From: an uncultured Burkholderiales bacterium
Lineage (GTDB): Bacteria > Pseudomonadota > Gammaproteobacteria > Burkholderiales > Burkholderiaceae_E
Assembly (NCBI GenBank): GCA_903903975.1
Contig: CAIVAS010000043.1
Location: 1 to 35,397 of the forward strand
DNA length: 35,397 bases
Reading direction: 5' to 3'
Part shown: positions 6,790 through 32,430 of the stretch, one piece after another
Position numbering within the stretch: position 1 is the first letter of the stretch
How the letters are laid out: every line of letters starts with the position of its first letter
Translations under genes and position numbers: made by a program
Notes under the pieces: generated by a model
The model's input: only the letters and a program-made list of their open reading frames with translations
Database searches by the model: none
What the model was told of the DNA's origin: nothing

Positions 6790-6848
6790 TCGCTGCGCCA
6801 AGCTTACCGACCACCCAATCCTTCGACGACACCAATTAGGGCATCAAC

Positions 6849-8372: not shown

Positions 8373-8397
8373 TCGCCATAGTCCATCCGTTGAATCT

Positions 8398-8428
8398 GTG
8401 CTGCTCTGGTAACCCGCCGGAGCAGCAC
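8398..8428 (+). promoter_or_regulatory. Stem-loop between tssC and hcp
   Basis: GTGCTGCTCTGG (8398-8409) pairs with CCGGAGCAGCAC (8417-8428) over 12 positions (one G-T pair) around a 7-base loop. It lies 25 bases past the tssC stop and 31 bases before the hcp start. No T-run follows, so it is more like an mRNA-stabilising or processing hairpin than a strong intrinsic terminator. Confidence 0.55.
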
Positions 8429-8459
8429 GCTTTCCACAAAGATTTCTGGAGTTTTTGTA

Positions 8460-8954: not shown

Positions 8955-9042
8955 TCTGCGGCTTTTATCGGAATCCGTCTCGGTCGTGGCGCAAATGCGA
9001 TTGTCGGCAAGCGCGAGCGACCGGGCGGTCTGGGGTTATTGA

Positions 9043-9501: not shown

Positions 9502-9528
9502 TTGAAAAACTGACGCGACCGGTTCACC

Positions 9529-11283: not shown

Positions 11284-12344
11284 TCCTTGCGCTCAAAGAT
11301 GCGCCTTTTGCATTTGATCTGTTTCAGGCCTTGTATCTGATTCAGCGCAGCGAGTCTGCACGTGCGCCATTAGGCACATCGCTTGGGCTCGACGAGTCAG
11401 TGCGCCTGAGTGGCGAAGTAGGTCTTGGTTTTGCGCCGAGTGACATCGTCTCGGTCAGCCCGAGCAATCGACCAGGGCCGGCGCTGACCCTGACGAACTC
11501 AGCGATGACTCTGGCAGGTGCATCGGCGCCGTTGCCTTTGCCCTATACCGAGCTGCTGCTCGAGATGCGGCGACAAAGGGATGAGTCCGGATTTGAGCTG
11601 CTCGACATTTTCAATCAACGCATGCTCGCCTTTCTCTATTGCAGCCGTAGCAAGCATCGCCCTGCTTTATCCCATGCAGACCTCGGGCAAATACCGGTAA
11701 CGAAAGCACTCGACTCCCTATCCGAGCTTGGTTGGAGAGATGGCGTTCGAGGGCCTCGCGGCCAGCGCGCCTGGCTGAGGCATGCTGGGCTGTCGGGCGC
11801 CGCGCCACGCTCAATGACCAGTCTGCTGGCGTTATTGAACGATCGATTTGGTCTGCGATTTTCGGGCAGGCAGTTCATTGGCGGATGGTTCGAATTCGAT
11901 GCCGCCGACCGGGCCTGCCTGGCAGGCTCGACAATGCGCCGTCGTGGGTCAATGCTTGGCGCCGGAGCAACCCTTGGTCGGCGTGCCTGGGATCAGTCAT
12001 CAGCCATCGAGATAAAGAGCCCCGCCTTGCGTCGATCAGAATTCATGGCCTTCCTGCCTGGCGGTGAGTCGCATGAAATGCTTGCTTGGCTCGCGGCGAG
12101 ACATTTTCAAACCGATGTCGAAATCCGCTTCAGCGCGAAACTTCACGACGACGACTCGACGGCGTTCGCGCTCGGTAGTGAGGCGTCCCCGTCCCTGGGG
12201 ATGACCTCGTGGCTGCAAGGCGGCAAGTCTCCCGGTCGACTACGGCCTGCGTTCGATCAGCCCCGTTATCTGTTGCGCTCTCGTCCGTCACATGCCGACT
12301 TGGGCAGCCCTTCTTCGTCTGCGGGAGCCGCTGGTGGAAATTGA
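11271..12344 (+). CDS. tssG: T6SS baseplate protein TssG (ImpH/VasB)
   Basis: 357 residues from the ATG at 11271 (TIGR03347 family). It begins with APFAFDLFQALYLIQRSE, the usual 'F.FfQavRLLe' type opening. It contains LTNSAMTLAGASAPLPLPYTE (in part), the conserved membrane-less LPL.Y..LL motif, and FLDIFNQR-like LLDIFNQRMLAFLY. It binds TssF and recruits TssK. A GTG at 11247 is in frame and would add eight residues; the ATG is preferred because the protein then begins at the conserved region. The start overlaps the tssF end by 13 bases, so translation is likely coupled. Confidence 0.94.
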   Translation: MGDLILALKDAPFAFDLFQALYLIQRSESARAPLGTSLGLDESVRLSGEVGLGFAPSDIVSVSPSNRPGPALTLTNSAMTLAGASAPLPLPYTELLLEMRRQRDESGFELLDIFNQRMLAFLYCSRSKHRPALSHADLGQIPVTKALDSLSELGWRDGVRGPRGQRAWLRHAGLSGAAPRSMTSLLALLNDRFGLRFSGRQFIGGWFEFDAADRACLAGSTMRRRGSMLGAGATLGRRAWDQSSAIEIKSPALRRSEFMAFLPGGESHEMLAWLAARHFQTDVEIRFSAKLHDDDSTAFALGSEASPSLGMTSWLQGGKSPGRLRPAFDQPRYLLRSRPSHADLGSPSSSAGAAGGN

Positions 12345-17072: not shown

Positions 17073-17758
17073 TGGCGGCGACGATGGACCCGATTGAGGA
17101 GCGCAGCAAGACTGGGCAAGTCATTGCGAGGTACGCCATGCTGGACGGCGCGCTGCATGGCCTGATAGAGCGCTTTGGCGAAACGGGTCAGCCTTCGATG
17201 ATGGCTAATTTTCTTCACGGAAAACTCAACGGAAAGGTGTCGCTGTTTTCCGAGTCGGGTGAGTTGGTCCAGGAGTCCGAATATCTGGATGGGGTCCAGC
17301 ATGGGCCGCTCAAAATTTATTCAAACGGACGCTGCATCGCGCAGCAGCATTTCGTCTTTGGAAAGCTGTCGGGGCCGGCGGTGTCTTACGATGCTGCCGG
17401 CAATCTGTCATCCCGGATGAACTATGTCGCCGGAAAGCTCGAGGGTAAGGCGTCGTTTTTTCACGAGGGCACCGAGGTTCGCCAGGCGAACTATCGCAAC
17501 GGTGTGCTTGATGGCGAGCTGAACGACCTCGACAGTCAGGGCGCATTGGTTCAGAGCTGTCACTACAAATCAAATGTGCTCGATGGACGACTGCGTCGCT
17601 ACTGGCCTAATGGCAAAGTGATGGAAGAGGTCGACTACGCCAAGGGAAAACCGCTCGGGTTGCCTCGGCGCTACGACATCAAGGGCAAGCTCACGGATAA
17701 TCTGACCGCTGAGCCAGCGCTTTTCGATCGGATTCGTACCCTGCTGAGGGGAAGCTGA
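17072..17758 (+). CDS. MORN-like repeat protein in the VgrG module
   Basis: 228 residues built of degenerate MORN/YwqK-type repeats of about 22-24 residues: DGALHGLIERF, HGKLNGKVSLFSESGEL, DGVQHGPLKIYSNGR, FGKLSGPAVSYDAAGNL, AGKLEGKASFFHEG, NGVLDGELNDLDSQG, SNVLDGRLRRYWPNGKVMEE. There is no signal peptide and no membrane segment. Automatic annotation often names such proteins 'YwqK-family antitoxin', but nothing here shows an antitoxin role. Its place between vgrG and a PAAR-like gene, overlapping both by one base, suggests a cargo adaptor, chaperone, effector or immunity role (inference). The ATG at 17072 is used; Met5 (17084) is an alternative. The last 20 residues do not fit the repeat. 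Confidence 0.82.
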   Translation: MAATMDPIEERSKTGQVIARYAMLDGALHGLIERFGETGQPSMMANFLHGKLNGKVSLFSESGELVQESEYLDGVQHGPLKIYSNGRCIAQQHFVFGKLSGPAVSYDAAGNLSSRMNYVAGKLEGKASFFHEGTEVRQANYRNGVLDGELNDLDSQGALVQSCHYKSNVLDGRLRRYWPNGKVMEEVDYAKGKPLGLPRRYDIKGKLTDNLTAEPALFDRIRTLLRGS

Positions 17759-18144
17759 TGGGCCAGCAGGTCTGCATGGGTGCGATGCTCAAATGCACTT
17801 TTGGTGCTGCACCGAGTTCATTGATGGTGCTGCCCACTAGTATGGTCATGACAAATGTCCCTGATGCAAACATCATGGACAATGTGCCGATGCTCAACGT
17901 GCTGCCCTTCGGCACCTGTTCATCGATGGCCAATCCGATGGTGATTGCGGCAACCGCCGCTGCCATGGGGGCGCTCACACCGATGCCGTGTATTCCGGTG
18001 ACGGTGGCGCCTTGGGTACCGGGGTCTCCTACGGTGCTTCTGGGCAATATGCCGGCTTTGGACAATGCGTCGAAACTGATGTGCACCTGGGGCGGCGTCA
18101 TTGGCATCAACTCGGCCGGACAAACGTCCGTGTCGATTCCCTGA
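17758..18144 (+). CDS. PAAR-like spike-tip protein (DUF4280)
   Basis: 128 residues resembling DUF4280, a PAAR-like fold expected to cap the VgrG spike. Visible family pattern: GAMLKCTFGAAPSSLMVLP, VPMLNVLPFGTCSSMANPMV, the Pro-rich TPMPCIPVTVAPWVPG, and a final LMCTWGGVIGINSAGQ. Four Cys (in LKCTFG, FGTCSS, PMPCIP, LMCTWG) are placed where this family keeps them; metal binding is possible but not shown. It has no toxin extension, so any effector must be a separate protein. It overlaps the MORN gene by one base. It is the only PAAR-type protein in the window. Confidence 0.85.
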   Translation: MGQQVCMGAMLKCTFGAAPSSLMVLPTSMVMTNVPDANIMDNVPMLNVLPFGTCSSMANPMVIAATAAAMGALTPMPCIPVTVAPWVPGSPTVLLGNMPALDNASKLMCTWGGVIGINSAGQTSVSIP

Positions 18145-18166: not shown

Positions 18167-18430
18167 ATGGAATATCGATTCAGCATGACCCCCCGTCTGG
18201 CAGCCCTGGCGGTCATTTGCTTTTGCGCCCTGATGGCGCTGATGTTCATGCTGGGATTTACGCTTGGTGAGAAAGAAGCCGACCGCAAGGGATCCTCGAC
18301 GATCAGCGTTGACGAAACTCGGAGGATGCGATCGACTTCAGGCGCATCACGCCCGCCAGCCAAGGCCCTCGATTCTGAAGGCGCGACAACTGCGGCGCCT
18401 GCGCCTGCGCCGGCGGCGAGCAAGCAATGA
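18167..18430 (+). CDS. Small single-pass membrane protein inside the T6SS operon
   Basis: 87 residues, not recognised. One strong membrane segment (about residues 10-33: LAALAVICFCALMALMFMLG) is followed by a charged linker and a Ser/Ala/Pro-rich tail ending PAPAPAASKQ. The short basic N-terminus suggests an N-in topology with the tail in the periplasm. Its stop overlaps the tssJ ATG (ATGA at 18427-18430), so it is probably translated with tssJ. A start at Met7 (18185) is also possible. The tail recalls the linkers that precede SPOR or OmpA domains, but no such domain follows. It could be an accessory of the TssJLM membrane complex (inference from position). Confidence 0.65.
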   Translation: MEYRFSMTPRLAALAVICFCALMALMFMLGFTLGEKEADRKGSSTISVDETRRMRSTSGASRPPAKALDSEGATTAAPAPAPAASKQ

Positions 18431-18975
18431 GCGGCCGATGCGATCGAGCGGCATGCGCCAAGCCAGCTGTCTGGCTGCTGATGTCTGTTGTCCTGTTTAT
18501 TTCCGGCTGCAGTTTGTTCAGCAAGACGCCGAGCCCGGTCACACCCGATTGGCAAAGCATCGTTGTGGCCGCTGATGAAGATGCCAATGCCAACAGTCCG
18601 GTGGCGATTGACATTGTTCTGGCACTCGATCAGAACATGGTCGAGTCGCTGCTCACGACGTCGGCCAGCAAATGGTTTGCCACCAAGGGCGATGTTCAGC
18701 GGACGTTTGCGAAGTCGATCATCGTGTTCAGCTATGAAATCGTCCCACGTCAGTCAGTCAAACTCGATCATCAAGCGCTGTCTGCCAACAAGATTCTTGG
18801 TGCCTTCGTTTTCGCGGATTATTCGACTCCCGGTGATCACCGGCAGCGCCTTGCATTGAATTCAGCAGGGTATGTCCTGCAACTCGAAACACGTGATTTC
18901 AGGGCTTTTGAAGGACAAGTGACGCGCTCTTTCTTTGGTCAGATCGAAAAAGCCATTTCGGGTGCAGCCAAGTGA
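18427..18975 (+). CDS. tssJ: T6SS outer-membrane lipoprotein TssJ (SciN)
   Basis: 182 residues. The signal peptide ends in the lipobox FISGC (Cys28), so the mature protein should be a lipoprotein. The mature part shows the beta-sandwich pattern of TssJ: SPVAIDIVLALDQNMVESLL, then KWFATKGDVQ, the SIIVFSYEIVPRQSVKL strand and KILGAFVFADYSTPG. It would anchor the TssM periplasmic domain to the outer membrane. It is more divergent from textbook TssJ than the other components, so the call leans partly on position right before tssK, tssL and tssM. The ATG overlaps the preceding stop as ATGA. Confidence 0.85.
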   Translation: MSGRCDRAACAKPAVWLLMSVVLFISGCSLFSKTPSPVTPDWQSIVVAADEDANANSPVAIDIVLALDQNMVESLLTTSASKWFATKGDVQRTFAKSIIVFSYEIVPRQSVKLDHQALSANKILGAFVFADYSTPGDHRQRLALNSAGYVLQLETRDFRAFEGQVTRSFFGQIEKAISGAAK

Positions 18976-19002
18976 CACGGTCCTTAAAACTTGTAGAGAG
19001 CC

Positions 19003-20331
19003 ATGGCGAATCCTGATTCACTTCCAGAGCGTATCCAGTGGCACGAGGGCATGATGCTCAGCCCTCAGCACTTTCAGCACGAAAGTGGGCGTGTCGATTC
19101 GTTGATTGCCTGGCAGGCATTGGCGTCGAACCCTTATGGCTGGGGAGTTCGAAAGCTCGAGATCGACGAAGCGCTCCTTTCTGCCGGGACATTGCGCATC
19201 CTGGCGCTCGAAGCAGTGATGCCGGACGGCACTGCTGTGACCTATTCGGCGCAGGATGTTGAGGGCAACGATCTTCAGTTCGATCTGTTGCCACTCGCAG
19301 AACAGCTGTCGACTTCTGAACAGGACGTGTATCTCACTGTTGCACGCTCGAGGTCGATGCGCGACCCGCGGCAGCCGTCGCGTTTCAAGGGAGTCCATTC
19401 ACTGCCACTCGAAGACGAAGTCTCTCAGGCACTGCCGGTTGATGTACCGAGGATGCGGCTGAACCTTGGTTTGTCGGTTGGTGCGGTGCCGACCTCGTTG
19501 CTGATGTTCATGAAGTTGCTCACGGTCGCGAAAGACAATGAGGTGTTCAAGCGGGGTCGGTTTATCCCCGCCATGCTTGAAGTGCCTGCTGACAATCCAA
19601 TACGAATTCGGGCCGCAGCCGTGGCCGCCGATATCCGCAGCAAGACGGTCTTCGTCTGCAAGCAGACCTCCGTTCCGTCGTCCAAACTTGAAGACCGACT
19701 AAGTATTCTCGAACAGCGCGAACGCCTGTCGAATCTCTCGGCGATGCTGCCCCTCTTCGAAGGTGTGCTGCGTTCCCCGGTTGTGACCCCCTATGCGCTG
19801 TATCTTGCGCTCTGTCTTCAGGTGGGTTCGCTGACGATGCTCAAGCCCGGCACCGTGCCTTTGATGCCGCCGCCCTGGAACCACGCCGACCCGTTGAGTT
19901 CGATTGAGCCGCTGCTGCACAGCGTTGAAGAAATGGCCGCTGAAGTCAGTCAGGACTGGCGCATTCAGGTGTTTTCTTTCGCAGGAGAGTTTTTTATTCT
20001 CAAGCTCAAGCCTGAATGGATGGGGCGACGCCTCGTCGTTGGCCTCAGAGGCCAGAGTGATCGAGATCTGATCGCCTGGATGAATGGCGCGGTCATCGGA
20101 TCGAAGACGGTCTGGCCGACTTTGAGCGACCGCCGCGTCATTGGTGCTCCACGAAATCAAATTGACGAAGCGCCTGAGCTTGGTGTCAGAGCGAGTGCCG
20201 GTTATCTGCTTTACAGCATCGAGGTTGCCGCCGATACGATCTTGCCCGATGAGGCGCTGGTGATCGGCAACCGAAACGAATCCGGTTCTGCGCAGCGGCC
20301 GCAAGAGCTGGTTCTTTTTGTCAAGGGCTGA
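19003..20331 (+). CDS. tssK: T6SS baseplate-membrane connector TssK
   Basis: 442 residues, normal length (TIGR03353). TssK trimers link the TssF/G wedges to the cytoplasmic domains of TssL and TssM. The N-terminus RIQWHEGMMLSPQHFQHES is diagnostic. It is followed by the beta-sandwich 'shoulder' (VTYSAQDVEGNDLQFDLLP), and PALLEVPADNPIRIRAAA-like FIPAMLEVPADNPIRI. The C-terminal receptor-like region ends GNRNESGSAQRPQELVLFVKG. It lies 27 bases past tssJ and 31 bases before tssL. Confidence 0.96.
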   Translation: MANPDSLPERIQWHEGMMLSPQHFQHESGRVDSLIAWQALASNPYGWGVRKLEIDEALLSAGTLRILALEAVMPDGTAVTYSAQDVEGNDLQFDLLPLAEQLSTSEQDVYLTVARSRSMRDPRQPSRFKGVHSLPLEDEVSQALPVDVPRMRLNLGLSVGAVPTSLLMFMKLLTVAKDNEVFKRGRFIPAMLEVPADNPIRIRAAAVAADIRSKTVFVCKQTSVPSSKLEDRLSILEQRERLSNLSAMLPLFEGVLRSPVVTPYALYLALCLQVGSLTMLKPGTVPLMPPPWNHADPLSSIEPLLHSVEEMAAEVSQDWRIQVFSFAGEFFILKLKPEWMGRRLVVGLRGQSDRDLIAWMNGAVIGSKTVWPTLSDRRVIGAPRNQIDEAPELGVRASAGYLLYSIEVAADTILPDEALVIGNRNESGSAQRPQELVLFVKG

Positions 20332-20362
20332 GCGGCAATGAGCGGGCAAGGGGGCGCACTCG

Positions 20363-21184
20363 ATGTCTGAGGCTGCATTGACAGGGTTGCCAAATTCGCA
20401 ATCGTATGGCGAGTCGGTTGATCTTGCGACGATGCAATTTCGTACTTTTTATGTCGAGTTGAGCAAGATGCAGCGAGTCGCCGCCAAAGCAAGCGAGGCA
20501 AATGCCGCTTCGATAGCAAGGACCGCGAGCGCCAACCTGCTCCAGTTGATCGAATTGCAGACGCTGGCAACACGGCGTCTTGGCGGCAGGAGTGGGCAGG
20601 AAATCGAAACCGACGCCCGTTTTCTGAAGGCCGCGCTGGCCGATGAGCTCATGCTCAATCTTCAATGGCCGGGCCGACGGGACTGGCATCAGGTACTTCT
20701 CGAGTCGAAATTGTTTAACAGCGGTATTTCCGGGGATAAGGTTTTTGACGATATCGATCGTTTGCTGATGGCGCGCGATCCTGGTGACCGCAATCGCGCG
20801 CGACTGTATCTGCATGTACTTGCCCTCGGTTTTCAGGGTCGATACAGGGGAAGTGCCGATGCTGGCGAGGTGCTGGCTGACTACCGGCGCGATCTGTTTC
20901 AGTTCGTGTACCAGCGTGCTGCGGACCTTAGTGCAACGGGCCGCACCGTGTCTGCGCAGGCGTACCTGAGTACGCTGTCCTACGTGTCCGCGAAGCGATT
21001 CAGGCGCTTCAGTCGCTGGACGGTCTGGCTGCTGGCGGCGGCACTGCTCCTGCTGACCCTCTCAGAGGCGCTCTGGATCTGGCAATCCTTGCGATTGAGG
21101 ATTCACATCGTTTTGCCGCAGGCCGCGTCGGTCGCCGGCCAGCCAAAAAGCGGTACTGATGCCCTCGAGCAAGGTCCGTGCTGA
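20363..21184 (+). CDS. tssL: T6SS inner-membrane protein TssL (DotU/IcmH-like)
   Basis: 273 residues. The cytoplasmic DotU domain has YVELSKMQRVAAKA, FLKAALADELMLNLQWPG (the conserved ALDE-like motif), LFNSGISGDKVFDDIDRLL and LHVLALGFQGRYRG. A tail anchor lies near residues 219-240 (WTVWLLAAALLLLTLSEALW). Only about 35 residues follow in the periplasm, so there is no OmpA-like or other peptidoglycan-binding domain. It binds TssM and TssK in the membrane complex. The gene ends seven bases into tssM. Confidence 0.94.
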   Translation: MSEAALTGLPNSQSYGESVDLATMQFRTFYVELSKMQRVAAKASEANAASIARTASANLLQLIELQTLATRRLGGRSGQEIETDARFLKAALADELMLNLQWPGRRDWHQVLLESKLFNSGISGDKVFDDIDRLLMARDPGDRNRARLYLHVLALGFQGRYRGSADAGEVLADYRRDLFQFVYQRAADLSATGRTVSAQAYLSTLSYVSAKRFRRFSRWTVWLLAAALLLLTLSEALWIWQSLRLRIHIVLPQAASVAGQPKSGTDALEQGPC

Positions 21185-24100
21185 ACATGCTGAGGGATAA
21201 CCTCCTGACCATTTTTCTGCTGGGACTGATCATTCTGGTCCTGGCGCTGCTGGGTTTCGTCGTCTGGGCGTCCCTGCGCAAGCAGACTCCTCTCGACAAG
21301 CCGGACGAGCAAAGACCTGAAAGAGTTGATGTCGAGTCGCTCAAGCAGTCGTTCAGACGCGCCGTCGAGCTGATCGAAGCCAATATTGTTTCAGGAGCCG
21401 AGCGTTACAACATTCCGTGGGTTCTTGTTCTCAATGACGGGCAGGGCCCTGCCGGGCTGCCCCTTGTTCAATCAGGATTGCACAGCGGACTGAGCGCCGA
21501 CTCGACTTTGTCTGCTGCGGCCCAGGGAATTACCTGGAACTTCTTCGACAAGGGCGTCGTGGTTCAGTTTCGGGTTGAATACCTTGGTTCGCCCGACGGA
21601 GAAAATGAAGGCAATCGAATCTGGGATGAGTTTCTGACCCTTTGCGAGGCGTATCGCCCAGAGCGTCCTTTTGATTCGGTTGTCCTGAGTCTGCCGGCAT
21701 CGGTCATGGGGCGCGACGACCCCAAGGCGCTGCTCGATGTGGCCGAGTACGCGAAGTCGATTCATCGGCGACTCTGGCGCACGCAGATCAGTCTGGCCAT
21801 GCGATTCCCGATCTACACCGTGGTTGCCGGCTGCGAAGCAATTCCTGGCTTCGCGCGCATGGCATCGGTGTTACCCGAGGGATTGCGAAACAGCATGCTC
21901 GGCTGGTCGTCGCCGTTCGATCTTTCCGCGCCCTATCAGAGCGCCTGGGTCGACTCGGCAGTCAATGCGGTGTCGGTGTCACTGTCGGATGCGTGTCAGG
22001 AGCTCAGTTCGCTCGAGTTGCCGGGGCATGACAGCGCAGACTATTTCCTGCTGCCCCTGCAGATTGAGAGTTTGCGCGCGAGCCTGAAGGTCTTTTGCGA
22101 TGAGTTGATGAAGCTGAGCAGTTACCACGAACCTTTCATGTTTCGCGGTATCTACCTGACCGGCGACTGCAGCTTTTCGGCGCAATTATTCGCAAGGCGA
22201 TTGGGTGAAGAAGTTTCAGACGCCACGGTGTCTCAGGCCGCGACTGACACTGCCAGCAGCGGTGCCGCCAGCAGTGCCGACCCGCAGACGATCAAGCCGG
22301 ATTCGCCTCTCGTGGAGGCAGCGCAGAATCCGGCATTCTTGAGGCAAATCTTCGAGAGCAAGGTTTTTGAAGAGTCAGGGTTGGCCAGGCCGACTCAAAT
22401 CCAGCGCATGCGACGCCCCCTGTTGTCGAAGACGACGCGATGGGTCGCCGTTGGTTTGCTGGTGTTCTGGGCGCTCGGGCTGGCCTTCGCAACCATCAGA
22501 ATGGACAAAGAGTTCAGGCTGATCGCTGACGTCCTGCAAAGGCTGGATAAGAATGCAAAATCGGACGCATCGGGTGGCATGGGCGGGAAAGCGCCCGCGC
22601 TTGTGGAAGCGGGCGGTGATCCGGATCCGGCCAATGTCCGATCGTTGCAGGACATCGCTGCGCTGACCGCTCTGAGCCAAGGTCAGATCAATTCGATCTT
22701 CATGCCTGGATCCTGGTCCTTGTTTGATGACCTCGGGGACCGTCTCGAAGTCATGATCGCATCCCAATTTGCCCAGAACGCCTTGATTCCGATACGTCGA
22801 GCGGTCCACCAGCAAATCAGTCAACTGACGGGCGTGCCTGTGGACCCCTCTACCGGCAACCTGATCAAGGGTGCACTGTGCAGTTTGCCGCCGAACTGGG
22901 CCAGTCAGACGCTCGATCGTTCCGGCGTTCCCAGCTTGTCGGTCAATCGCGCGCCGGAGTTCGGTGCTGCCTTGCAGTATTTGGCCAACATCGATCAGAT
23001 CGATCAGGTCATCGGTGCGATGAGACGACTGGTCGATGGCGATGCGCCACCTTCCGGCAGCGATCTGAAGCTGATCGTGAAGGCAGTCGCTGGCGTAGAT
23101 CCGAAACTTGACATGAATCGTCAGGCCGAAATCTTCCGTCGGTATGCAAAGAGCGCCTCTGAAAGCGCACCGCTCGAGCCGATGCAAGCGGCGGCGGGCT
23201 GTACCTTCAAGTTGGCTATGTCGGAGCTTGATAAGAGGCTGTTTGCCGAAAACGAGCTTTTGCTCAGTGAAAAACGCATTGCCGATCTGACGACCAAGCT
23301 GGTGACAGGCGGCGTTGGATCGGTGGACCCCGTCAAGGCGATTGATGGCTGGAAAGCCATTCAGGATGAACTTTATCGGCAGGAGGATCTTTTTGACCCG
23401 GGTCAGGGCTACTGGATCAATCGACGTTCGTTTGATGGCAACAAGGGCTATTCCGATTTGCTGCAAAGCGCGGCATCAATGTCGCTGATTGGGCCGGGGG
23501 TCGTAGCGCAAGTAAAAGGCACGACGAATGAGCGGCTTGGCGAATTTCTGAATGATTGGGATGCGGTTCAACGCACTAGTCGGTCGGCAATCGGCAAGGG
23601 GCTTGCTTGGTCCGACAAGGAAAACAAGTGGGCTTTCGCCGAAGATCGGGTCAACCTCCTCATTGGCTTGACCGAACTTCTGCTGCAGCCGTATACGAAT
23701 GTGGTGGCTCGACGAAACCGGCTTGTCGCGCCGGGCCAGCAGACGATTTCGTGGGACAAGATCAAGCTCGATCAGGCGCTCGCGATGTCGACAACGCGAA
23801 AGGACTTCTACAGCAATATCCTTCCAAAGTTTCCGGCTGTGGCGCGCGCCGAAATTGATCAGTTGACCAACGGCCTGCTGGCGAATGTCGTGACTGATCT
23901 GACTGCTCAATCGATGATTCTGAACCAGCCCGGCGTCCGGCCCCCGCCGCTTGATGACGCCGTTCGAACCCGCCTGTCGGGCCTGCAGTCCATGCTGATC
24001 GACATGGGGGCCAAGACTTCCTCAGACCAGATCACTGCAGTTCTGGCGATGGATGCACAGGTTCGCCTTCGATTGCTCGATGACGCCTTTCAGCGATCGG

Positions 24101-25383
24101 ATGTCTACGTTCCGCAGGACCGCAGTTTCAAGAACTGGACCGGTGACAAGGCACCGCTGCAGCAGGCGTTTTCGGTCAGCGACAGCCAGGGCATTGCGGC
24201 CTATGTGGCCGATCAGTCGAGCTATGTCGATGCCTTGAGTCGCGAGGCAGACAATCTTTTGCCACGACTTGACTCGACCTTTGCCTCGAGCCCGGTCGCT
24301 GTTCGGTGGCAAGGCATTGTGAATGATCTGAGTCGGTATCGACTCAAGAGTCCCAACAGCAGCCTCATGCTGCTTGAGCAGTTCGTACTCGTGACGGCAG
24401 CCGATGTCGACCGAGCCAACTGCGCCGAAAAACTGATTGCCAAGTCTGTGGCGCGTGGATCATCGGATGTGTTCAGTGAGCGTCAGCAAATGCTTCTGTC
24501 GGGACTCGCCAATCGGTGCCGCGATCTGCTGTCGACCGAGCGGCGGGATGCGTGGGATTCGTTTGCACAGCGTTTCAATCAGGATCTCGCAGGCCGCTCG
24601 CCCTTCATGTTCCTGTCCAATGCGCAGTCATGGGCTGCTCCCGGCGTGGTTGCCGGGCAGGTCAGAAATGCGGAAATCACCGCGGTCGATTCAGATACCG
24701 CAGGAATGACGCTTCGATTGTTCGACTCGGCGCACAAGCTGCTGAATGACCGATCCGCGTCGCGCCCCGGATCGACCAACCCGGGCGTGCCGGTGCTGCG
24801 CTTCGATCTGCAGATGGATCGGGTTCGAAACTTCATGGCGCCGCTCTATCCGACTGATGAGAACCAGCCTGCCGGCTACGATCTTTCAGTGGAGTTTCGC
24901 TCGAATATCGCTTTCGAAGTGGACGGCAACCAGATTGCCGAGTGGACGCTGACCGTTGGCAACCAGACGCTGCGCCAGCGCGAGCCTGCTCGCGTGCTGC
25001 GCTGGCAGCCAGGCATGCCGGTCGTGCTTGCGCTGCGCCTGGCGCGTGATGGTCCGCTTGTGCCCGCAGTCGATCCCGCGCAGCCCTGGATGTCGATTGA
25101 CAATCGGACGGCAAGCTATCGGTTCACCGATCCATGGGCGCTCTACTCGTTCATCAGCCGACACCGTGATATCGAAACCGCGCCGCGCCCCGATACCAAG
25201 TCGCAACTGCTTCGATTTGAGCTTCCCCTCGGGTCCCCGTCTGACAACTCGACCGAGATGCCGGCGGTCGCGTCGCGCGCGCGCGTCTTCATGCGATTGA
25301 CGATCACCGGCGCCGGCAAGCGAGCACCGCTTGTGTGGCCTGTGATTTTTCCGACAACAGCACCTGTTTGGGGTATCCAGTGA
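21178..25383 (+). CDS. tssM: T6SS inner-membrane scaffold TssM (IcmF), P-loop lost
   Basis: 1401 residues. TssM spans the inner membrane and periplasm and meets TssJ at the outer membrane. A membrane segment at about 9-31 and another at about 420-443 (RWVAVGLLVFWALGLAFATI) flank the cytoplasmic domain. Most family members have two N-terminal spans; only one is seen here. The site where IcmF proteins carry GxxxxGKT reads NDGQGPAGL (86-94), with no Lys, and the usual DTAGRY region is replaced near FRVEYLGSPDG. NTPase activity is therefore unlikely. The C-terminus (about 1180-1390) holds the IcmF-C domain (LRFDLQMDRVRNFMAPLYPT). The start is GTG 21178 with an AAGG site; ATG 21187 is an alternative. 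The stop overlaps the tssA ATG. Confidence 0.94.
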   Translation: MLNMLRDNLLTIFLLGLIILVLALLGFVVWASLRKQTPLDKPDEQRPERVDVESLKQSFRRAVELIEANIVSGAERYNIPWVLVLNDGQGPAGLPLVQSGLHSGLSADSTLSAAAQGITWNFFDKGVVVQFRVEYLGSPDGENEGNRIWDEFLTLCEAYRPERPFDSVVLSLPASVMGRDDPKALLDVAEYAKSIHRRLWRTQISLAMRFPIYTVVAGCEAIPGFARMASVLPEGLRNSMLGWSSPFDLSAPYQSAWVDSAVNAVSVSLSDACQELSSLELPGHDSADYFLLPLQIESLRASLKVFCDELMKLSSYHEPFMFRGIYLTGDCSFSAQLFARRLGEEVSDATVSQAATDTASSGAASSADPQTIKPDSPLVEAAQNPAFLRQIFESKVFEESGLARPTQIQRMRRPLLSKTTRWVAVGLLVFWALGLAFATIRMDKEFRLIADVLQRLDKNAKSDASGGMGGKAPALVEAGGDPDPANVRSLQDIAALTALSQGQINSIFMPGSWSLFDDLGDRLEVMIASQFAQNALIPIRRAVHQQISQLTGVPVDPSTGNLIKGALCSLPPNWASQTLDRSGVPSLSVNRAPEFGAALQYLANIDQIDQVIGAMRRLVDGDAPPSGSDLKLIVKAVAGVDPKLDMNRQAEIFRRYAKSASESAPLEPMQAAAGCTFKLAMSELDKRLFAENELLLSEKRIADLTTKLVTGGVGSVDPVKAIDGWKAIQDELYRQEDLFDPGQGYWINRRSFDGNKGYSDLLQSAASMSLIGPGVVAQVKGTTNERLGEFLNDWDAVQRTSRSAIGKGLAWSDKENKWAFAEDRVNLLIGLTELLLQPYTNVVARRNRLVAPGQQTISWDKIKLDQALAMSTTRKDFYSNILPKFPAVARAEIDQLTNGLLANVVTDLTAQSMILNQPGVRPPPLDDAVRTRLSGLQSMLIDMGAKTSSDQITAVLAMDAQVRLRLLDDAFQRSDVYVPQDRSFKNWTGDKAPLQQAFSVSDSQGIAAYVADQSSYVDALSREADNLLPRLDSTFASSPVAVRWQGIVNDLSRYRLKSPNSSLMLLEQFVLVTAADVDRANCAEKLIAKSVARGSSDVFSERQQMLLSGLANRCRDLLSTERRDAWDSFAQRFNQDLAGRSPFMFLSNAQSWAAPGVVAGQVRNAEITAVDSDTAGMTLRLFDSAHKLLNDRSASRPGSTNPGVPVLRFDLQMDRVRNFMAPLYPTDENQPAGYDLSVEFRSNIAFEVDGNQIAEWTLTVGNQTLRQREPARVLRWQPGMPVVLALRLARDGPLVPAVDPAQPWMSIDNRTASYRFTDPWALYSFISRHRDIETAPRPDTKSQLLRFELPLGSPSDNSTEMPAVASRARVFMRLTITGAGKRAPLVWPVIFPTTAPVWGIQ

Positions 25384-26546
25384 TGAAGCTTCAAGACAGC
25401 GACGAATTGCTGCTCGCATCCTTGTCTCCAGAAGCGCCCTGTGGCGTATCGATGCGAGCCGAGCAGCTCTTCACCGACATTCGTTTCCAGCGCGAAGAGG
25501 ACGACCCTTCCCTGCCGATGGGGCACTGGGAGCGCCCGCTCAAGCGAGCCGACTGGTCGACGATCGAGAAGCTGTGCACCACGGCGCTGACGACCCGCGG
25601 CAAGGATCTCCAGATTGCGGCCTGGCTGCTTGAAGCCTGGTTGCGTCAGTCGCAGCTTGACGGATTACGTCGCGGGCTGCTGTTGATCTCAGAACTGTTG
25701 AGTCGCTACTGGGACAGCGTCTATCCCCCGGTTGGCGAAGACGGTGACGTCGATGCGCGTCTGGCGCCGTTCGAATGGCTCAATGCCAGCTTGCCGGTAC
25801 CGATGAAGCTTTATGTCACGCTTATCACCCTGCCCGAGCGAAAGCCCGCCAATCTCAATCTGTCCGATTGGGACAAAATGACCATGACCGAGATTGCATC
25901 GGCGGGCAAGGAAGAAAAACCAGGCAAGAACCCGCCACAGGAAGACGAAGTAGTGCTCACGCGGTCAGATGTGATCGCTGCCTCGCACAAGTTGGGGGGC
26001 AGTCAGGCCCGCCTTACACTTGAGCATGTCCGCGCTTGCCTTGTCGCCCTGTCGGGTCTGATCGACGTACTGCGTGACAAGCTCGGTTCGCAGGCCCCGA
26101 GCATGAACAAGATCAAGGTCACTCTGGAGCAGTTCGACCGGGCACTTGTCCAATTACTGCCGCCCGCTGCCGAGTTGACCCAAGCGCCGATCAGCGAGCC
26201 GACCCGACAGACACCTTCTGAATCGAGAGCTGACATGACTTCTGAAAATTTGCCGATTTCGGCTGCGCCGACGAATGGCCAGGCATCGACCGAGGTGACG
26301 CACAGAGCTCAGTCGGTCGAAATGGGAAATTGGTCGAGCCGCGCGCAGGCCTATCGAACGCTCGAAGCGGTTGCCGACTATCTCAGCAAGACCGAACCCC
26401 ATAGTCCCACGCCCTATCTCATTCGCCGCGCAGTGAACTGGGGACGCATGCCGCTGCCCGAACTGATGGCCGAGATCATGCGTGAAGAAGGCGATTTGAA
26501 CCGGATGATTTCGGTACTCGGACTTCAGAACAAGAGTGGCGAATAA
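25383..26546 (+). CDS. tssA: T6SS cap/assembly protein TssA (ImpA domain)
   Basis: 387 residues from ATG 25383. The N-terminal ImpA_N domain is clear: LLASLSPEAPCGVSM (the PCG motif), WERPLKRADWSTIEKLCTTAL, LQIAAWLLEAWLRQSQLDGL, and YWDSVYPPVGEDGDVDAR. A linker rich in Ser/Thr/Pro (about 275-320) leads to a C-terminal domain, SRAQAYRTLEAVADYLSKTEPHSPTPYL (in part), with RRAVNWGRMPLPELM, as in ImpA-type TssA proteins. TssA primes and coordinates tube and sheath assembly. The start overlaps the tssM stop by one base. An in-frame upstream ATG at 25335 lies inside tssM and would break the family N-terminus. Its end overlaps the first glycosyltransferase gene by 11 bases. Confidence 0.93.
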   Translation: MKLQDSDELLLASLSPEAPCGVSMRAEQLFTDIRFQREEDDPSLPMGHWERPLKRADWSTIEKLCTTALTTRGKDLQIAAWLLEAWLRQSQLDGLRRGLLLISELLSRYWDSVYPPVGEDGDVDARLAPFEWLNASLPVPMKLYVTLITLPERKPANLNLSDWDKMTMTEIASAGKEEKPGKNPPQEDEVVLTRSDVIAASHKLGGSQARLTLEHVRACLVALSGLIDVLRDKLGSQAPSMNKIKVTLEQFDRALVQLLPPAAELTQAPISEPTRQTPSESRADMTSENLPISAAPTNGQASTEVTHRAQSVEMGNWSSRAQAYRTLEAVADYLSKTEPHSPTPYLIRRAVNWGRMPLPELMAEIMREEGDLNRMISVLGLQNKSGE

Positions 26547-28899
26547 CGACGGGCGCGCCGGCGTATCCAGGGCCTTTTCCCTCAAGCAGGCACTTCAGAA
26601 GGCCGCTGGCGCCTATGACGGTCACGATTGGCCGCTTGCTCAGTCGATCTGCGATGCGGTGCTGGCAAAGTTTCCGGCCAACTTTGATGCCCTCAATCTC
26701 AGCGGCATCATTGCCGCGCAGACCGGCCGCCTGACCGATGCGCGCGAGTGCCTCGAACGCGCCGCCAAGGCAAAGCCGGGCGACGCCTTCGTGCTCAACA
26801 ATCTGGGCAATGTGCTGAGTCAGCTTCAACGTCATGATGATGCCATGGCGTATTTCAATCGCGCGATCGGTATTCGACCCGACTACGCAGAGGCCTTCAA
26901 CAACCGCGGTACAGCCCTGCGCGCCCTGGGCCGTCATGACGAGGCGCTTGCCAGCTACGATCGGGCAATCACCTTGCATGCCGACTATCCTCAGGCGCTG
27001 ACCAACCGCGCGATCGTCCTGCGCGAGATCGGTCGGCTCGATGATGCAATCGCGGGGCACCGCGAGGCACTCGAAAAGGCGCCCGCCCTGGTCGAGGTCT
27101 GGATCAATCTTGGAGCGACCCTGAACGAGGCGGGTCGCATCCTCGAGTCTGTCGAATGCTTTCAGCGGGCCATCGCCATCGATCCGCAATCAGCTCAGGC
27201 CCATGTGAACCTGGGTAATGGCCTGAGAGCCCTGCACCGGCTCGATGAGGCGTTGCGGTGTTACGACCGGGCGATCGATCTGATGCCGAACGATGCTCGC
27301 GCCTACAGCAATCGCGGTTCGGTACTGGTGGAGGCGGCCAAGTTGTCTGAGGCGCTGCAGGCCTTCGATTGCGCCCTTGCGATCGACCCTGGCGATGCGC
27401 CGACCCTCGCTGCCCGCGGACATGCCCTCAGCGGTCTGGACCGTCTTGAGGAGGCGATTGCGAGCTATGACCGTGCGCTCGAGTGCGATCCCAATCTCCA
27501 GTGGCTGGCTGGTCTGCGCCAGCACAGGCGAATGCAGGCCTGCGACTGGTCTGGCTGGCCTCAGGTGTTGCAGCCGATCGTCGATGCGCTCGAGCGCGGC
27601 AGGCCGGTCGTGCCGCCATTTGCGCTGCTCGCATTGGTCGACTCGCCGGCATTGCAACTGAAGGCGGCCAGGGTATGGAGCGCCTCGCAGGCAGCCCTCA
27701 TTCCGCCTTCACAAGCACTGCCAGTCGTCGCGGCAGAGGAACGAATCCGGGTAGGCTATTTTTCCGAAGACTTCTGCAATCATCCGGTGAGTCATCTGAT
27801 GGCGGGCGTCTTCGAGCATCACGATCGTTCGCGCTTCGAATGCTTTGCCATGTCGCTTGGTTCGGACCGCACTGATCAGATGCGAGCCCGAGTTCAACGC
27901 GGGGTCGATCACTTCGTCGATCTGAGCGGCCGCTCCGACAGCGAATCGGTGGCGCTGGCAAGGCGGCTGGGCATCGAGATCGCGGTTGACCTGAGCGGCT
28001 ATACAGGCTCACCCCGCAGCGCACTCTTTGCCAGTCGGGTCGCGCCGATTCAGGTCGGCTATCTCGGCTATCTCGGGTCGATGGGAGCGGAGTATGTCGA
28101 TTATCTGATCGCTGATGACACCCTGATCGAACTCGAGCAGCGCGAGCATTATTCAGAGCGAATCGCCTGGCTGCCGAGCTACCAGCCGAATGATTCGCAT
28201 CGCCACGTCAGTGATCGACCGGTCTTGCGTGAGCACCTCGGTCTGCCCGAGACGGGCTTCGTGTTTTGCTGTTTCAACAATAACTACAAGATGACCCCGC
28301 CGACCTTTGCGTCATGGATGCGCATCCTGTTGCGGGTGAATGGCAGCGTGCTGTACCTGTTCGCGGGCAATCCGATCGCCGAGCGCAATCTGCGAGCGCA
28401 GGCGGCTTTGCAGGGCGTCGACCCCAAGCGGCTGGTGTTCGCGCCTCGCGTATCACGGGCTGACTATCTGGCACGGTTTCGAGTGACCGATCTGTTTCTC
28501 GACACCTGGCCCTATAACGCCGGCACCACCGCCAGTGATGCCTTGTGGGTTGGCGTCCCGGTACTGACTTTCGCGGGTCAGTCGATGGCGGCGCGGGTTT
28601 GCGCGAGCGTGTTGCATGCGATCGGGCTGCCCGAGCTGATTGCAAGCAGTCAGGCTGACTATGAAGACAAGGCGGTCTCGCTTGCGACACAGTCTGAGCA
28701 GATGGACGCGTTGCGACACAAGCTCGATATCCAGCGCCGCAATTCGCCGCTGTTTGATACAACAGGATTCACACGCCATCTTGAGGCGATCTATCAATCC
28801 ATGGTCGATCGATCTCGCGGCGGATTGCCGCCGGCTGATCTGCGAACCGTGCTACTGGCATCGCTGCCAGAAGGGCGCAGGGTGAGCTCGGATGACTAA
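26536..28899 (+). CDS. TPR protein with GT41 (O-GlcNAc transferase/SPINDLY) domain, copy 1
   Basis: 787 residues. Residues about 15-325 hold roughly nine TPRs (for example NNLGNVLSQLQRHDDAMAYF, NRGTALRALGRHDEALASYD). Residues about 400-770 form the GT41 glycosyltransferase: IRVGYFSEDFCNHPVSHLM with His416 (equivalent to human OGT His498), FNNNYKM with Lys585 (equivalent to Lys842), and DTWPYNAGTTASDALW from 656. The expected reaction is sugar transfer from a nucleotide sugar to Ser/Thr of cytoplasmic proteins; donor and target are unknown. Two conserved positions deviate: Gly663 in place of His in the 'HTT' motif, and Leu513 in place of Pro in 'GYPG'. The GTG start overlaps tssA by 11 bases. 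It is the first of two tandem paralogues. Confidence 0.9.
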   Translation: MANNDGRAGVSRAFSLKQALQKAAGAYDGHDWPLAQSICDAVLAKFPANFDALNLSGIIAAQTGRLTDARECLERAAKAKPGDAFVLNNLGNVLSQLQRHDDAMAYFNRAIGIRPDYAEAFNNRGTALRALGRHDEALASYDRAITLHADYPQALTNRAIVLREIGRLDDAIAGHREALEKAPALVEVWINLGATLNEAGRILESVECFQRAIAIDPQSAQAHVNLGNGLRALHRLDEALRCYDRAIDLMPNDARAYSNRGSVLVEAAKLSEALQAFDCALAIDPGDAPTLAARGHALSGLDRLEEAIASYDRALECDPNLQWLAGLRQHRRMQACDWSGWPQVLQPIVDALERGRPVVPPFALLALVDSPALQLKAARVWSASQAALIPPSQALPVVAAEERIRVGYFSEDFCNHPVSHLMAGVFEHHDRSRFECFAMSLGSDRTDQMRARVQRGVDHFVDLSGRSDSESVALARRLGIEIAVDLSGYTGSPRSALFASRVAPIQVGYLGYLGSMGAEYVDYLIADDTLIELEQREHYSERIAWLPSYQPNDSHRHVSDRPVLREHLGLPETGFVFCCFNNNYKMTPPTFASWMRILLRVNGSVLYLFAGNPIAERNLRAQAALQGVDPKRLVFAPRVSRADYLARFRVTDLFLDTWPYNAGTTASDALWVGVPVLTFAGQSMAARVCASVLHAIGLPELIASSQADYEDKAVSLATQSEQMDALRHKLDIQRRNSPLFDTTGFTRHLEAIYQSMVDRSRGGLPPADLRTVLLASLPEGRRVSSDD

Positions 28900-31249
28900 T
28901 CCGGATCGTCCGCGAGTGCCCGGTGTTCTGTCTTCGGGTGTACCCCGCCAGGCATTGATGGCGATCTTGACGCAAGCGGTCGCGGACTACCGCAAGCAGA
29001 ACTGGTCCAAAGCAGAGCAGGCTTGTCTGAAGGTGCTCAAGCTTGCGCCCGATCAGTTCGATGCGCTGAATCTGCTGGGCATTGTCGCCCTCAATACCCG
29101 CCGTTTTGACGATTCAAGCAAGTGGTTCGAGCGAGCGCTGGCGGTCAATGCCAATGACCCGCAGGTTCAATGCAACAGCGGTGCCGCTTTGCATGAACTC
29201 GGGCGCTACGACGAGGCGCTGGTCCGTTACGACCGCGCGCTGGCATTGAAACCCGACTATTCGCAGGCTTTGTGCAATCGTGCGCTCAGCCGGCAAGCAC
29301 TTGGAGAGATGGATCTTGCGCTGATCGATGTCGACCGTGCGCTGGAGGCTGAGCCGTTTTTTGCTCAGGCCTGGCATGAGCGCGGGCGACTGTTGCATCA
29401 ACTCGGCCGCTTCGAGGCGGCGCTGAGCAGTTTCGACACAGCGATCCTGCAGGGTCACGACACGGTGGAGGCTCAATTCCTGCGCGCTGCATCGCTGCAG
29501 TCGAGCCGCGAGCCGGTCTTGGCCGCACAGGGCTACGCCCGGGTTATCGAGCGTGATCCTTTGCACCTGGCGGCACTGAACAACCGTGGCGTCGTGCTTC
29601 AGGAGATCCGGCAATTCGACGCTGCCATCGAGTCCTACCACCGATCGCTGGCGCTCGAGCCCAAGCAGCCACAGACATACTGCAACCGCGGTGCCGCGAA
29701 GGCCGAACTCGGACAGTTCGAGGCTGCGATCGCGGATTTCGACCAGGCGATCGCCCTGGCACCCGAGCATGCCGAAGCGCATAACAATCGCGCCAGTGCG
29801 CTGCGCGAATGTCATCGGCTGGACGAAGCATTGATGGGCTACCTTCGCGCCCGTGAGTTGGGTTTTTCGCCCGATTGGCTCGATGGTGCGATCGCTGGTC
29901 TCAGAGGTCAGCTCTGCGATTGGCAGTCACGGCAGGCTGACGTGCAGCGGCTGGTCGACAAAATTCGAGACGGCCGCACCGCGATTACACCCTTTGCATT
30001 TTTGCCCTTCGTCGACTCCTGGCCGTTGCAGCGGCAAGCCGCCGAATCATGGGTGGCGCAGGAATGTCAGCCGCGAGATCGCCTTGGTGCGATCGGTCGT
30101 GTGCCGCACGGCGCAAAGATCAGGGTTGGCTATTTTTCGGGTGATTTTTTTGAACACGCGACGACCCAGCTGGCGGTTCGGCTTTTTGAATCCCACGATC
30201 GAAGCCGCTTCGAGATCATCGGTTTTTCGTTTGGTCCACTGATCCATGACGCCATGCACCACAGAGTCCGAGCCGCGTTCGATCAGTTCTTCGAAGTGCA
30301 GGCAATGGGCGACGCGCAGGTGGCTCTGCTTGCCCGCGAACTGAAGCTCGATATTGCCGTTGATTTGAAGGGCTTCACCCGCGACAGCCGTCCGTCCATC
30401 TTTGCGCATCGTGCCGCCACGGTTCAGGTGAGCTATCTCGGCTATCCCGGAACAACTGGCGCGCCGTTCATTGATTACCTGATCGCTGACGCGACCCTCA
30501 TCCCCGATGAAAATCTCAACGGTTACTCGGAAAAAATTGCTTTTTTGCCTGACTCCTACCAGGTCAACGACGCATTTCGCCCGATTTCGGAGCGGGTCTG
30601 GACGCGGCAGGAGTCAGGCCTGCCCGCCGAGGGATTTGTCTATTGCTGCTTTAACAACAACTACAAGATCTCGCCCGAGAGCTTCGACTGCTGGATGCGA
30701 ATCCTGGCGAAGGTTCCGGGCAGCGTGCTCTGGCTGCTGGAGGACCATCCGATTGCGGCGTCAAACTTGCGTCGGGAAGCCCGCGCCCGTGGCGTCGATT
30801 CCGACAGGCTGATCTTTGCCGGGCGTGTTCCGGCGTCGGAACACCTTGCCAGACACCGCTTGGCCGATTTGTGCCTCGACACCGTCTGCTACAACGCCCA
30901 CACCACGGCCAGCGATGCCTTGTGGGCTGGCGTGCCAATCCTCACTTGCATCGGCAGCGCCTTTGCCGCCCGAGTGGCAGCCAGCCTGCTTGTGGCGCTC
31001 GAGATGCCTGAGTTGATCACGAGCACCCTGCAGCAATTCGAAAGTCAAGCAATTGAGTTGGCGCTTCACGCCGATAGCCTTGCCAGGTTGAAAAACAAAT
31101 TGCTCAGGCACCGCGACAGCGCGCCGCTTTTCAAGACCGAGCTCTTTACGCGGCACCTCGAGGATGCCTTTGAGCAGATGGTTGATCGTGATCGCGCCGC
31201 GCTTGCGCCCGATCACATTCGGGTGGCGAAGCGATCGGATACGGCGTGA
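28892..31249 (+). CDS. TPR protein with GT41 (O-GlcNAc transferase/SPINDLY) domain, copy 2
   Basis: 785 residues with the same layout as the preceding protein. TPRs run from about 20 to 330 (WSKAEQACLKVLKLAPDQFD, NSGAALHELGRYDEALVRYD). The GT41 domain runs from about 408 to 765: IRVGYFSGDFFEHATTQLA with His422, SYLGYPGTTGAPFIDYLIAD (canonical GYPG), FNNNYKI with Lys592, and DTVCYNAHTTASDALW from 663 with His670. This copy keeps the canonical GYPG and HTT motifs that copy 1 has lost, so it is the better candidate for an active transferase. The ATG overlaps the end of copy 1 by eight bases. It is the last gene of the T6SS transcription unit. Confidence 0.9.
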   Translation: MTNPDRPRVPGVLSSGVPRQALMAILTQAVADYRKQNWSKAEQACLKVLKLAPDQFDALNLLGIVALNTRRFDDSSKWFERALAVNANDPQVQCNSGAALHELGRYDEALVRYDRALALKPDYSQALCNRALSRQALGEMDLALIDVDRALEAEPFFAQAWHERGRLLHQLGRFEAALSSFDTAILQGHDTVEAQFLRAASLQSSREPVLAAQGYARVIERDPLHLAALNNRGVVLQEIRQFDAAIESYHRSLALEPKQPQTYCNRGAAKAELGQFEAAIADFDQAIALAPEHAEAHNNRASALRECHRLDEALMGYLRARELGFSPDWLDGAIAGLRGQLCDWQSRQADVQRLVDKIRDGRTAITPFAFLPFVDSWPLQRQAAESWVAQECQPRDRLGAIGRVPHGAKIRVGYFSGDFFEHATTQLAVRLFESHDRSRFEIIGFSFGPLIHDAMHHRVRAAFDQFFEVQAMGDAQVALLARELKLDIAVDLKGFTRDSRPSIFAHRAATVQVSYLGYPGTTGAPFIDYLIADATLIPDENLNGYSEKIAFLPDSYQVNDAFRPISERVWTRQESGLPAEGFVYCCFNNNYKISPESFDCWMRILAKVPGSVLWLLEDHPIAASNLRREARARGVDSDRLIFAGRVPASEHLARHRLADLCLDTVCYNAHTTASDALWAGVPILTCIGSAFAARVAASLLVALEMPELITSTLQQFESQAIELALHADSLARLKNKLLRHRDSAPLFKTELFTRHLEDAFEQMVDRDRAALAPDHIRVAKRSDTA

Positions 31250-31335: not shown

Positions 31336-32430
31336 TCACGGCGTCGGCAGGACTCGCTGGTTCTGCAAGATTGCAATCCAGTCGCGAAACATCCGCTCGG
31401 TATCGATGCAGTCGGCGAATCCGGCCTGGCGCAACTTGATCGTCGACACAATGACCGGCGGTGGGGCCTGACGGGCATGGGCGCCAAAGCAGAAGTCCGC
31501 ATAGTGGTGTGACTCGCCGAGCATCTGCGACAGCGCGGGTGCGACAAGGCGGTGCTCGGCAACGATCTGGTCCCAAACCGATGAGTGTTCTGGCAGATAG
31601 TGCGCAAGCCGCAAGGCTTCGTCAGGACCGCATGCGATACCGAGTGCATCGGCAATGGCCGGCCAGACGTTGCGCCATGCGAACACATCGCCGTTGGTGA
31701 TGTTGAAGGTCTGATTGCGCGCGCGCTCAGCCTCACTCGCCCAGGCCATTGCTCGAGCGACGAGCCTTGCATCGGTCGCCTCCAGGATGTTGGTGGGGCC
31801 GCCCGGATAACTGAAGGGCTGGCCTTTTGCGCGCCTGATCGCGGCATAGACGCCGATGATCGGCACCAGGTTCATCGCCACGCCGAGTGCGTCACCGAAA
31901 ATCAGCTGTGGCCGAAAGATCGTAAAGCCGAAACCTTCGCGATGAGCCATTTCACGCAGGTAGTCTTCCTGCAGCCAGTAGAAGTTTTCGTGTTGATCGC
32001 GAGGCTTGTCTTCGCGAGCCGGTACGGCCACCGGATGCAGATGCACGCCATAGGCTTTTGTTCCCTGCAGCAGGCTGACATGACGCAGGCCATGGCCGGC
32101 TTGCGTCATCGGCGTAAGCAGATTGCGCAGCATGGCCAGATTGGTTTGCATCTGATCCGGCTCACGCCAGCCCTTGACCAGGCCGGGTTTCTCGAAAAGC
32201 GCGGCATAGGCGAGGTGGGTGATCTCGCCGATTGACGCGATGGCATCCGCGCAGGCCTGAGGGTTGGTGAGATCGACACTCAAGTGCTGAGCTCGATCGG
32301 CGTGAGCGGCATCAGGACGCCGTCGTGACAGGGTGACCACGCGCCACTCGGGCATTTGCGCAAAATGGTCGAGTGCCGCACGCCCCACGACACCGGTGGC
32401 ACCAGCGATGAGAACGGTTTTTTGCGCCAT
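31336..32430 (-). CDS. NAD(P)-dependent SDR reductase, PRISE-like (progesterone 5-beta-reductase/iridoid synthase-like)
   Basis: 364 residues, extended short-chain dehydrogenase/reductase fold. The N-terminal GATGVVG (10-16) is the nucleotide-binding motif. LLQGTKAYG carries Lys125, and NFYWLQEDYL carries Tyr151; this Lys and displaced Tyr are the catalytic arrangement of the PRISE group, which reduces enones. FTIFRPQLIFG and FNITNGDVFAWRNVWPAIAD are also typical. The natural substrate in bacteria is unknown. The ATG at 32430 has an AGGAG site upstream. It is convergent with the glycosyltransferase gene and divergent from the ABC-transporter operon. Confidence 0.85.
   Translation of the reverse strand: MAQKTVLIAGATGVVGRAALDHFAQMPEWRVVTLSRRRPDAAHADRAQHLSVDLTNPQACADAIASIGEITHLAYAALFEKPGLVKGWREPDQMQTNLAMLRNLLTPMTQAGHGLRHVSLLQGTKAYGVHLHPVAVPAREDKPRDQHENFYWLQEDYLREMAHREGFGFTIFRPQLIFGDALGVAMNLVPIIGVYAAIRRAKGQPFSYPGGPTNILEATDARLVARAMAWASEAERARNQTFNITNGDVFAWRNVWPAIADALGIACGPDEALRLAHYLPEHSSVWDQIVAEHRLVAPALSQMLGESHHYADFCFGAHARQAPPPVIVSTIKLRQAGFADCIDTERMFRDWIAILQNQRVLPTP

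Follow-up and report, generated by a model that had tools for sequence, protein, structure and literature searches.

Glycosyltransferases of the OGT type modify cytoplasmic proteins. In Caulobacter, an experimental precedent is offered by the cytoplasmic enzyme FlmG, whose tetratricopeptide repeat (TPR) domain binds flagellins, which the enzyme modifies (PMC7591256). Here we describe two adjacent genes, GT1 and GT2, that are predicted to encode TPR proteins with a GT41 catalytic domain and that stand at the 3′ end of a type VI secretion system (T6SS) operon in an uncultured Burkholderiales bacterium. The stretch analyzed, called the window below, is the complete contig CAIVAS010000043.1 (G000:C43; 35,397 bases) of the source genome G000, a draft assembly of 270 contigs. 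An earlier note on this DNA had proposed that the two genes couple protein glycosylation to the T6SS; in the literature, judged from titles and the starts of abstracts, we found no paper that describes GT41 within a T6SS cluster. The leading explanation, which we hold tentatively, is that a TPR-GT41 pair was recruited in this lineage to the 3′ end of the operon, where it would be coupled to tssA and would serve a client destined for export, perhaps a component of the T6SS, as an optional add-on.

The GT1-GT2 pair and its probable coupling to tssA

Both proteins matched the Pfam family Glyco_transf_41 over both halves of the domain (293.7 bits for GT1 and 275.4 bits for GT2; cut-off of 25), and each carries an N-terminal TPR array to which many TPR families scored above the Pfam cut-off. 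The best PDB match of either protein was human OGT (E values of 2e-131 for GT1 and 2.4e-117 for GT2), followed by Xanthomonas OGT (7.5e-85 and 7.9e-81, respectively, at best), and the match to SPINDLY was weaker (2.8e-76 and 1.1e-67). The earlier description of the pair as OGT/SPINDLY-type is thus apt in naming TPR-GT41 proteins of the OGT type; the SPINDLY-type assignment is less so and was rejected, because the human and Xanthomonas enzymes match better.

For the active site, we took H558, K842, H920-T921-T922, and D925 of human OGT to be its catalytic and donor-binding positions. In the PDB alignments and motifs, the equivalents of H558, K842, T921-T922, and D925 are kept in both GT1 and GT2. 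The H920 equivalent is kept in GT2 and is a glycine in GT1 (NAGTT), a form found in a minority of 67 aligned rows. Judged from their sequences, GT1 and GT2 are full-length TPR-GT41 proteins of the OGT kind with intact key positions, and both are predicted to be active as O-glycosyltransferases.

Open reading frame (ORF) coordinates bore out the overlaps claimed earlier, all on one strand: 11 bases between tssA and GT1 and 8 bases between GT1 and GT2 (gaps to the preceding gene of -11 and -8 bases, with -7 for tssM and -1 for tssA). The first of these is firm whichever start is chosen, because the reading frame of GT1 is open only from 26509 on and, ahead of residue 42, contains a single ATG, GTG, or TTG, the GTG at 26536. 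No promoter-like site was found on the plus strand between 20000 and 33000, in a promoter and terminator scan that as a whole was at chance level (2 found versus 2.7 expected and 10 found versus 11.6 expected). A convergent SDR gene begins 86 bases past the end of GT2. The overlaps, the common strand, and the lack of a plus-strand promoter-like site in that scan suggest that GT1 and GT2 are co-transcribed with tssA, and the tight overlaps imply coordinated translation. The proposed coupling to the T6SS is retained in this sense, as a probable single transcription unit; as a general GT41-T6SS link it is not, as set out below.

The same tssM-tssA-GT1-GT2 order was present in G003, which represents another species of the same genus, on a 10,846-base contig with 98.7% DNA identity; contig CAIKZV010000712.1 (L062), identical in size and order, most likely represents this very record. 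Of the 12 genomes of the genus, only G000 and G003 yielded tssA, and near-identical GT1 was likewise confined to these 2, the best match elsewhere being at most 44% identical. Since tssA and GT1 occur in the same genomes, the T6SS and GT1 appear to have been gained or lost together within the genus, possibly in one event.

GT1 and GT2 share 42% identity. In a tree built from 67 GT41 catalytic domains, both fell within one clade of 11 rows (98/88) without being sisters, and each grouped with its G003 counterpart, on long branches of 0.83 for GT1 and 0.63 for GT2. The third GT41 of the source genome (contig C131) clustered with copies from other species of the genus (100/99), a second same-genus clade lay elsewhere in the tree, and GT1 and GT2 were outside both. 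This placement points to recruitment of diverged copies, not to derivation from the GT41 genes seen in the other species of the genus. A recent tandem duplication of a single GT41 gene was rejected on the basis of the tree placement and the 42% identity. Tandem GT41 genes occur at other loci too.

Proposed recruitment to the operon and rival explanations

If the pair was recruited, two cytoplasmic O-glycosyltransferases of the OGT kind joined a T6SS operon at its 3′ end in one Burkholderiales lineage, where they would share a transcript with tssA and be coupled to its translation. The TPR superhelix of each enzyme would hold a client protein, and its GT-B domain would transfer a sugar from a nucleotide donor to serine or threonine residues of that client before export. 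The likeliest clients would be exported proteins, foremost the cargo or the spike and tube proteins of the same operon. The pair would be an optional add-on, neither a conserved T6SS part nor a stand-in for the set of genes that exerts control by threonine phosphorylation. The sequences themselves show the protein family, the overlaps, the kept active-site positions, the order in the sister genome, and the absence from the relatives examined; co-transcription, activity, donor, client, and timing are inferred. A more specific version, in which the T6SS possesses its own O-glycosylation module and GT1 and GT2 add sugars to the spike, the tube, or the cargo, or to TssA, ahead of assembly or firing, for control or for protection of the cargo, seems to us rather doubtful.

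Genomic contexts of other TPR-GT41 genes were taken from extended GT41 neighborhoods and from three plasmid matches, the first of them without annotation. In favor of recruitment, some of these genes lie near secretin and prepilin genes (L127), a type IV pilin gene (L128), a prepilin-like gene (L139), and fliS (L130), and on a Collimonas plasmid (L146) a YadA adhesin is 2.8 kb from a TPR-GT41 gene. On a Pseudomonas asturiensis plasmid (L147:596-14324), a TPR-GT41 gene stands between the gene for a 1032-residue ALTTAQ-repeat protein (30 repeat matches) and type I secretion genes; this threonine-rich repeat protein would be a natural client for the neighboring enzyme.

Several results weigh against recruitment in the service of the T6SS. 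The appendage contexts just listed were hand-picked, many GT41 neighborhoods show none, and they represent a tendency, not a count. The distribution of the link is a second point. A genome contig collection was scanned with a two-row TssA alignment and two short peptide patterns, a design that finds only pattern-bearing TssA of the window's type. Of the 34 loci obtained, 30 visibly had the order tssK-tssL-tssM-tssA, and GT41 adjoined tssA in one, that of the sister genome. GT41 was present in 0 of the 33 other loci in the available sequence, which extends at least 4 kb past tssA in 29 of them (L065, L087, L088, and L093 end within 1.4 kb). In a sample of 399 genomes from the order, tssA was present in 92; 53 of these had GT41 anywhere (28/46 plus 25/46), and only G000 had it within 40 kb of tssA (1/92). 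A phylum sample of 398 genomes contained 87 with tssA, 12 of which were already in the order sample; the remaining 75 included 12 with GT41 and none with GT41 near tssA. Combined, 65 of 167 T6SS-bearing genomes carried GT41 somewhere and 1, the window's own, carried it within 40 kb of tssA; distances in both samples were compared by eye, and fragmented assemblies may hide neighbors. The next-nearest tssA-GT41 pairs were ~46 kb apart (G334, order sample) and ~178 kb apart (G699, phylum sample). On plasmids, a joint TssA and GT1 query was covered to 80% at one place by none of 586 matching records, and among the 40 matches listed none has its start within the main body of TssA; this search could overlook weaker pairs.

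These counts do not sustain a general GT41-T6SS link, and the 33 other loci include what the earlier note had named in advance as contrary evidence: relatives with the same T6SS order in which GT41 is elsewhere or absent. By the same counts, GT41 is not a conserved accessory gene of the T6SS. Because the link is seen only in two near-identical sister genomes, comparison lends a T6SS role no support beyond that pair. A role restricted to this lineage may exist.

The remaining contrary points concern selection and clients. Between the sister genomes, the 3′ part of tssM together with tssA showed 19 synonymous codon differences and 1 nonsynonymous one, while GT1 showed 8 and 6 and GT2 showed 3 and 8, respectively. 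This contrast (14 nonsynonymous/11 synonymous for GT1 plus GT2 versus 1/19; Fisher P value of 3e-4) indicates that the glycosyltransferase genes are under looser or different selection than tssA and the 3′ part of tssM. Serine and threonine enrichment singled out no clear client among the T6SS proteins: VgrG had 16 of 40 residues, slightly above the ≤14 seen in 7 relatives; the TssA linker had 12 of 40, a level that 1 of 34 rows attained, but ranked fourth of 33 by linker fraction; and for the proteins from tssB to tssH and for Hcp a single comparator each was available.

Nearly as likely as recruitment is the explanation that GT1-GT2 is a passenger cassette that merely shares the T6SS promoter, with clients (a pilin, flagellin, or adhesin, for example) whose genes lie in other parts of the genome. 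The restriction of the link to this lineage and the difference in selection between the glycosyltransferase and T6SS genes are consistent with it, as is the location of several GT41 genes elsewhere in pilin, flagellar, or adhesin loci. GT1-like proteins are also widespread in the order, with matches in 199 of 399 genomes (E value of ≤1e-40; two candidates scored per genome). Outside the window's own locus and that of the sister (L017 and L018), no window-like T6SS gene was found in 88 loci around GT1-like matches; these loci partly overlap, many have 1.5-kb flanks, some were matched via the TPR part only, and dissimilar T6SS genes would be missed. A mere passenger is harder to reconcile with the coordinated translation implied by the tight tssA, GT1, and GT2 overlaps, with the retention of the pair in both sister species, and with the co-occurrence of GT1 and the T6SS in the genus.

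The proposal made in the earlier note, that O-glycosylation of T6SS core proteins acts as a switch replacing phosphorylation control by Fha, PpkA, PppA, and TagF, appears improbable. In its favor, Pfam scans of 29 window ORFs agreed that these control genes are absent from the window, and the established action of OGT-type enzymes on cytoplasmic proteins would suit such a role. A whole-genome search for TagF gave no match, but its positive control matched nowhere either. The argument from the missing control set is weakened by G023 (probably Derxia gummosa), which has the same T6SS core order, no GT41 beside the cluster, and neither Fha nor a kinase in the ten flanking ORFs scanned: on this evidence, the lack of the set would need no replacement. 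No sugar-removing enzyme was among the window's Pfam matches either, and with two sister genomes as the only ones in which the arrangement was seen, the idea that sugars switch the T6SS stays a guess.

Delivery of GT1 and GT2 themselves as T6SS cargo into other cells (protists, for example), whose proteins they would glycosylate, is very improbable: the genes lie inside a T6SS operon and resemble eukaryotic OGT, but they follow tssA rather than vgrG, Pfam gives only TPR and GT41 type domains with no effector marker, and their relatives occupy non-T6SS loci in many bacteria. An assembly or binning artifact, which the 270-contig draft and the status of the sister genome as a metagenome-assembled genome (MAG) might suggest, is scarcely credible and was rejected, since in each of two genomes, which are not identical in sequence, the same junctions lie within a single contig.

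Gene inventory and neighboring genes

Coordinates of the operon and of features at related loci are collected in Table 1. Twelve of the 13 T6SS core genes were identified by profile (tssA, -B, -C, -D, -E, -F, -G, -H, -I, -K, -L, and -M); the candidate tssJ (18427-18975) had no profile match in any scan. TssA was identified by TIGR03363 (266.7 bits; cut-off of 160.85) in addition to ImpA_N of Pfam. TssM and TssL scored above the Pfam cut-offs and below the NCBIfam cut-offs, TssM reaching 112.3 bits against TIGR03348 (cut-off of 388.15).

Table 1. Coordinates of the T6SS operon in the window and of features at related loci
Feature	Location	Strand	Basis or remark
tssB, tssC, hcp (tssD), tssE, tssF, tssG, tssH (ClpV-like), in this order	6277..15057	+	Pfam
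vgrG (tssI), MORN-repeat gene, DUF4280 gene	15054..18144	+	Pfam
Candidate tssJ, tssK, tssL	18427..21184	+	tssJ by position and conservation only
tssM (IcmF-like)	21178..25383	+	IcmF-related_N, 153.9 bits, above cut-off
tssA	25383..26546	+	ATG start; ImpA_N; longer ORF from GTG 25335
GT1, 787-aa TPR and GT41, predicted OGT-like protein O-glycosyltransferase	26536..28899	+	GTG start
GT2, 785-aa TPR and GT41, predicted OGT-like protein O-glycosyltransferase; last gene of operon	28892..31249	+	ATG start
NAD-dependent epimerase/SDR gene, convergent, bounding operon	31336..32430	-	
Formyltransferase-like gene	L064:9108-9776; also L063, L065, L067-L071, L074, L076, L077, L083, L086, L094		
Formyltransferase-like gene after tssA	L078:3537-4220		
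C(I/L)VQPxGY(V/I)H-like protein	L049:8567-10198 (own genome, contig C131), L053:8356-9990, L056:7375-8997, L138:6250-7749, L141:12888-14531		

Six of the 34 related loci (L072, L075, L087, L088, L091, and L093) also show the trio of vgrG, MORN-repeat, and DUF4280 genes, and Pfam detected no toxin domain in the MORN and DUF4280 genes of the window (17072-18144). At 1937-4285 of the window, one ORF fuses a pyridine nucleotide-disulfide oxidoreductase domain and a patatin-like phospholipase domain. One related TssA, in a Massilia MAG (L073:10001-11005), has no other window-like T6SS gene within 10 kb on either side and is possibly an orphan.

In 14 of the 34 TssA loci, tssM and tssA are separated by a Formyl_trans_N gene that resembles sugar N-formyltransferases, and one further locus has this gene directly after tssA. 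The nearest solved structure for its product is GDP-4-amino-4,6-dideoxymannose formyltransferase (E value of 5e-6). In the order, 2 of 399 genomes matched it at an E value of ≤1e-20; one match lies between tssM and tssA (G079, L149), and the 2.8-kb locus of the other (L150) contains no window-like T6SS gene. Our literature search, judged from titles and the starts of abstracts, found no report of a formyltransferase linked to tssM and tssA.

Several TPR-GT41 genes, including one in the source genome itself, have a neighbor that encodes a protein of ~500 to 545 residues with a C(I/L)VQPxGY(V/I)H-like stretch close to the N terminus. Three of these proteins (L049, L138, and L141) gave only weak methyltransferase matches. 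Such a protein was not noticed in the window, where no search for it was made.

Comparison with described systems

If T6SS proteins prove to be the clients of GT1 and GT2, O-glycosylation would join phosphorylation in controlling or protecting a contractile weapon, and the pair would provide a ready-made test. If the clients are encoded elsewhere, the locus would still be a clean example of TPR-GT41 enzymes joining the operons of exported machines.

Among T6SS clusters, those of Massilia, Duganella, Noviherbaspirillum, Paraburkholderia, and Derxia resemble the window in their tssK-tssL-tssM-tssA order. They differ from it in having no GT41 in the available sequence and, in many cases, in carrying the formyltransferase-like gene between tssM and tssA.

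Among GT41 enzymes, the plant protein SPINDLY likewise combines a GT41 domain with TPRs, but it is a weaker match than OGT. Human and Xanthomonas OGT, the closest structural relatives by sequence, share with GT1 and GT2 the TPR array, the split GT41 catalytic domain, and the kept key positions; unlike human OGT, GT1 and GT2 are bacterial and encoded in a T6SS operon, and GT1 carries a glycine at the position of H920. In its overall plan, the pair also resembles FlmG, which acts in the cytoplasm, has TPRs at its N terminus and a glycosyltransferase domain at its C terminus, and modifies an exported structural protein before export (PMC7591256). Pfam scans identified no flagellin gene among the window ORFs. 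FlmG further differs in being 596 residues long and in transferring pseudaminic acid to flagellins (PMC7591256).

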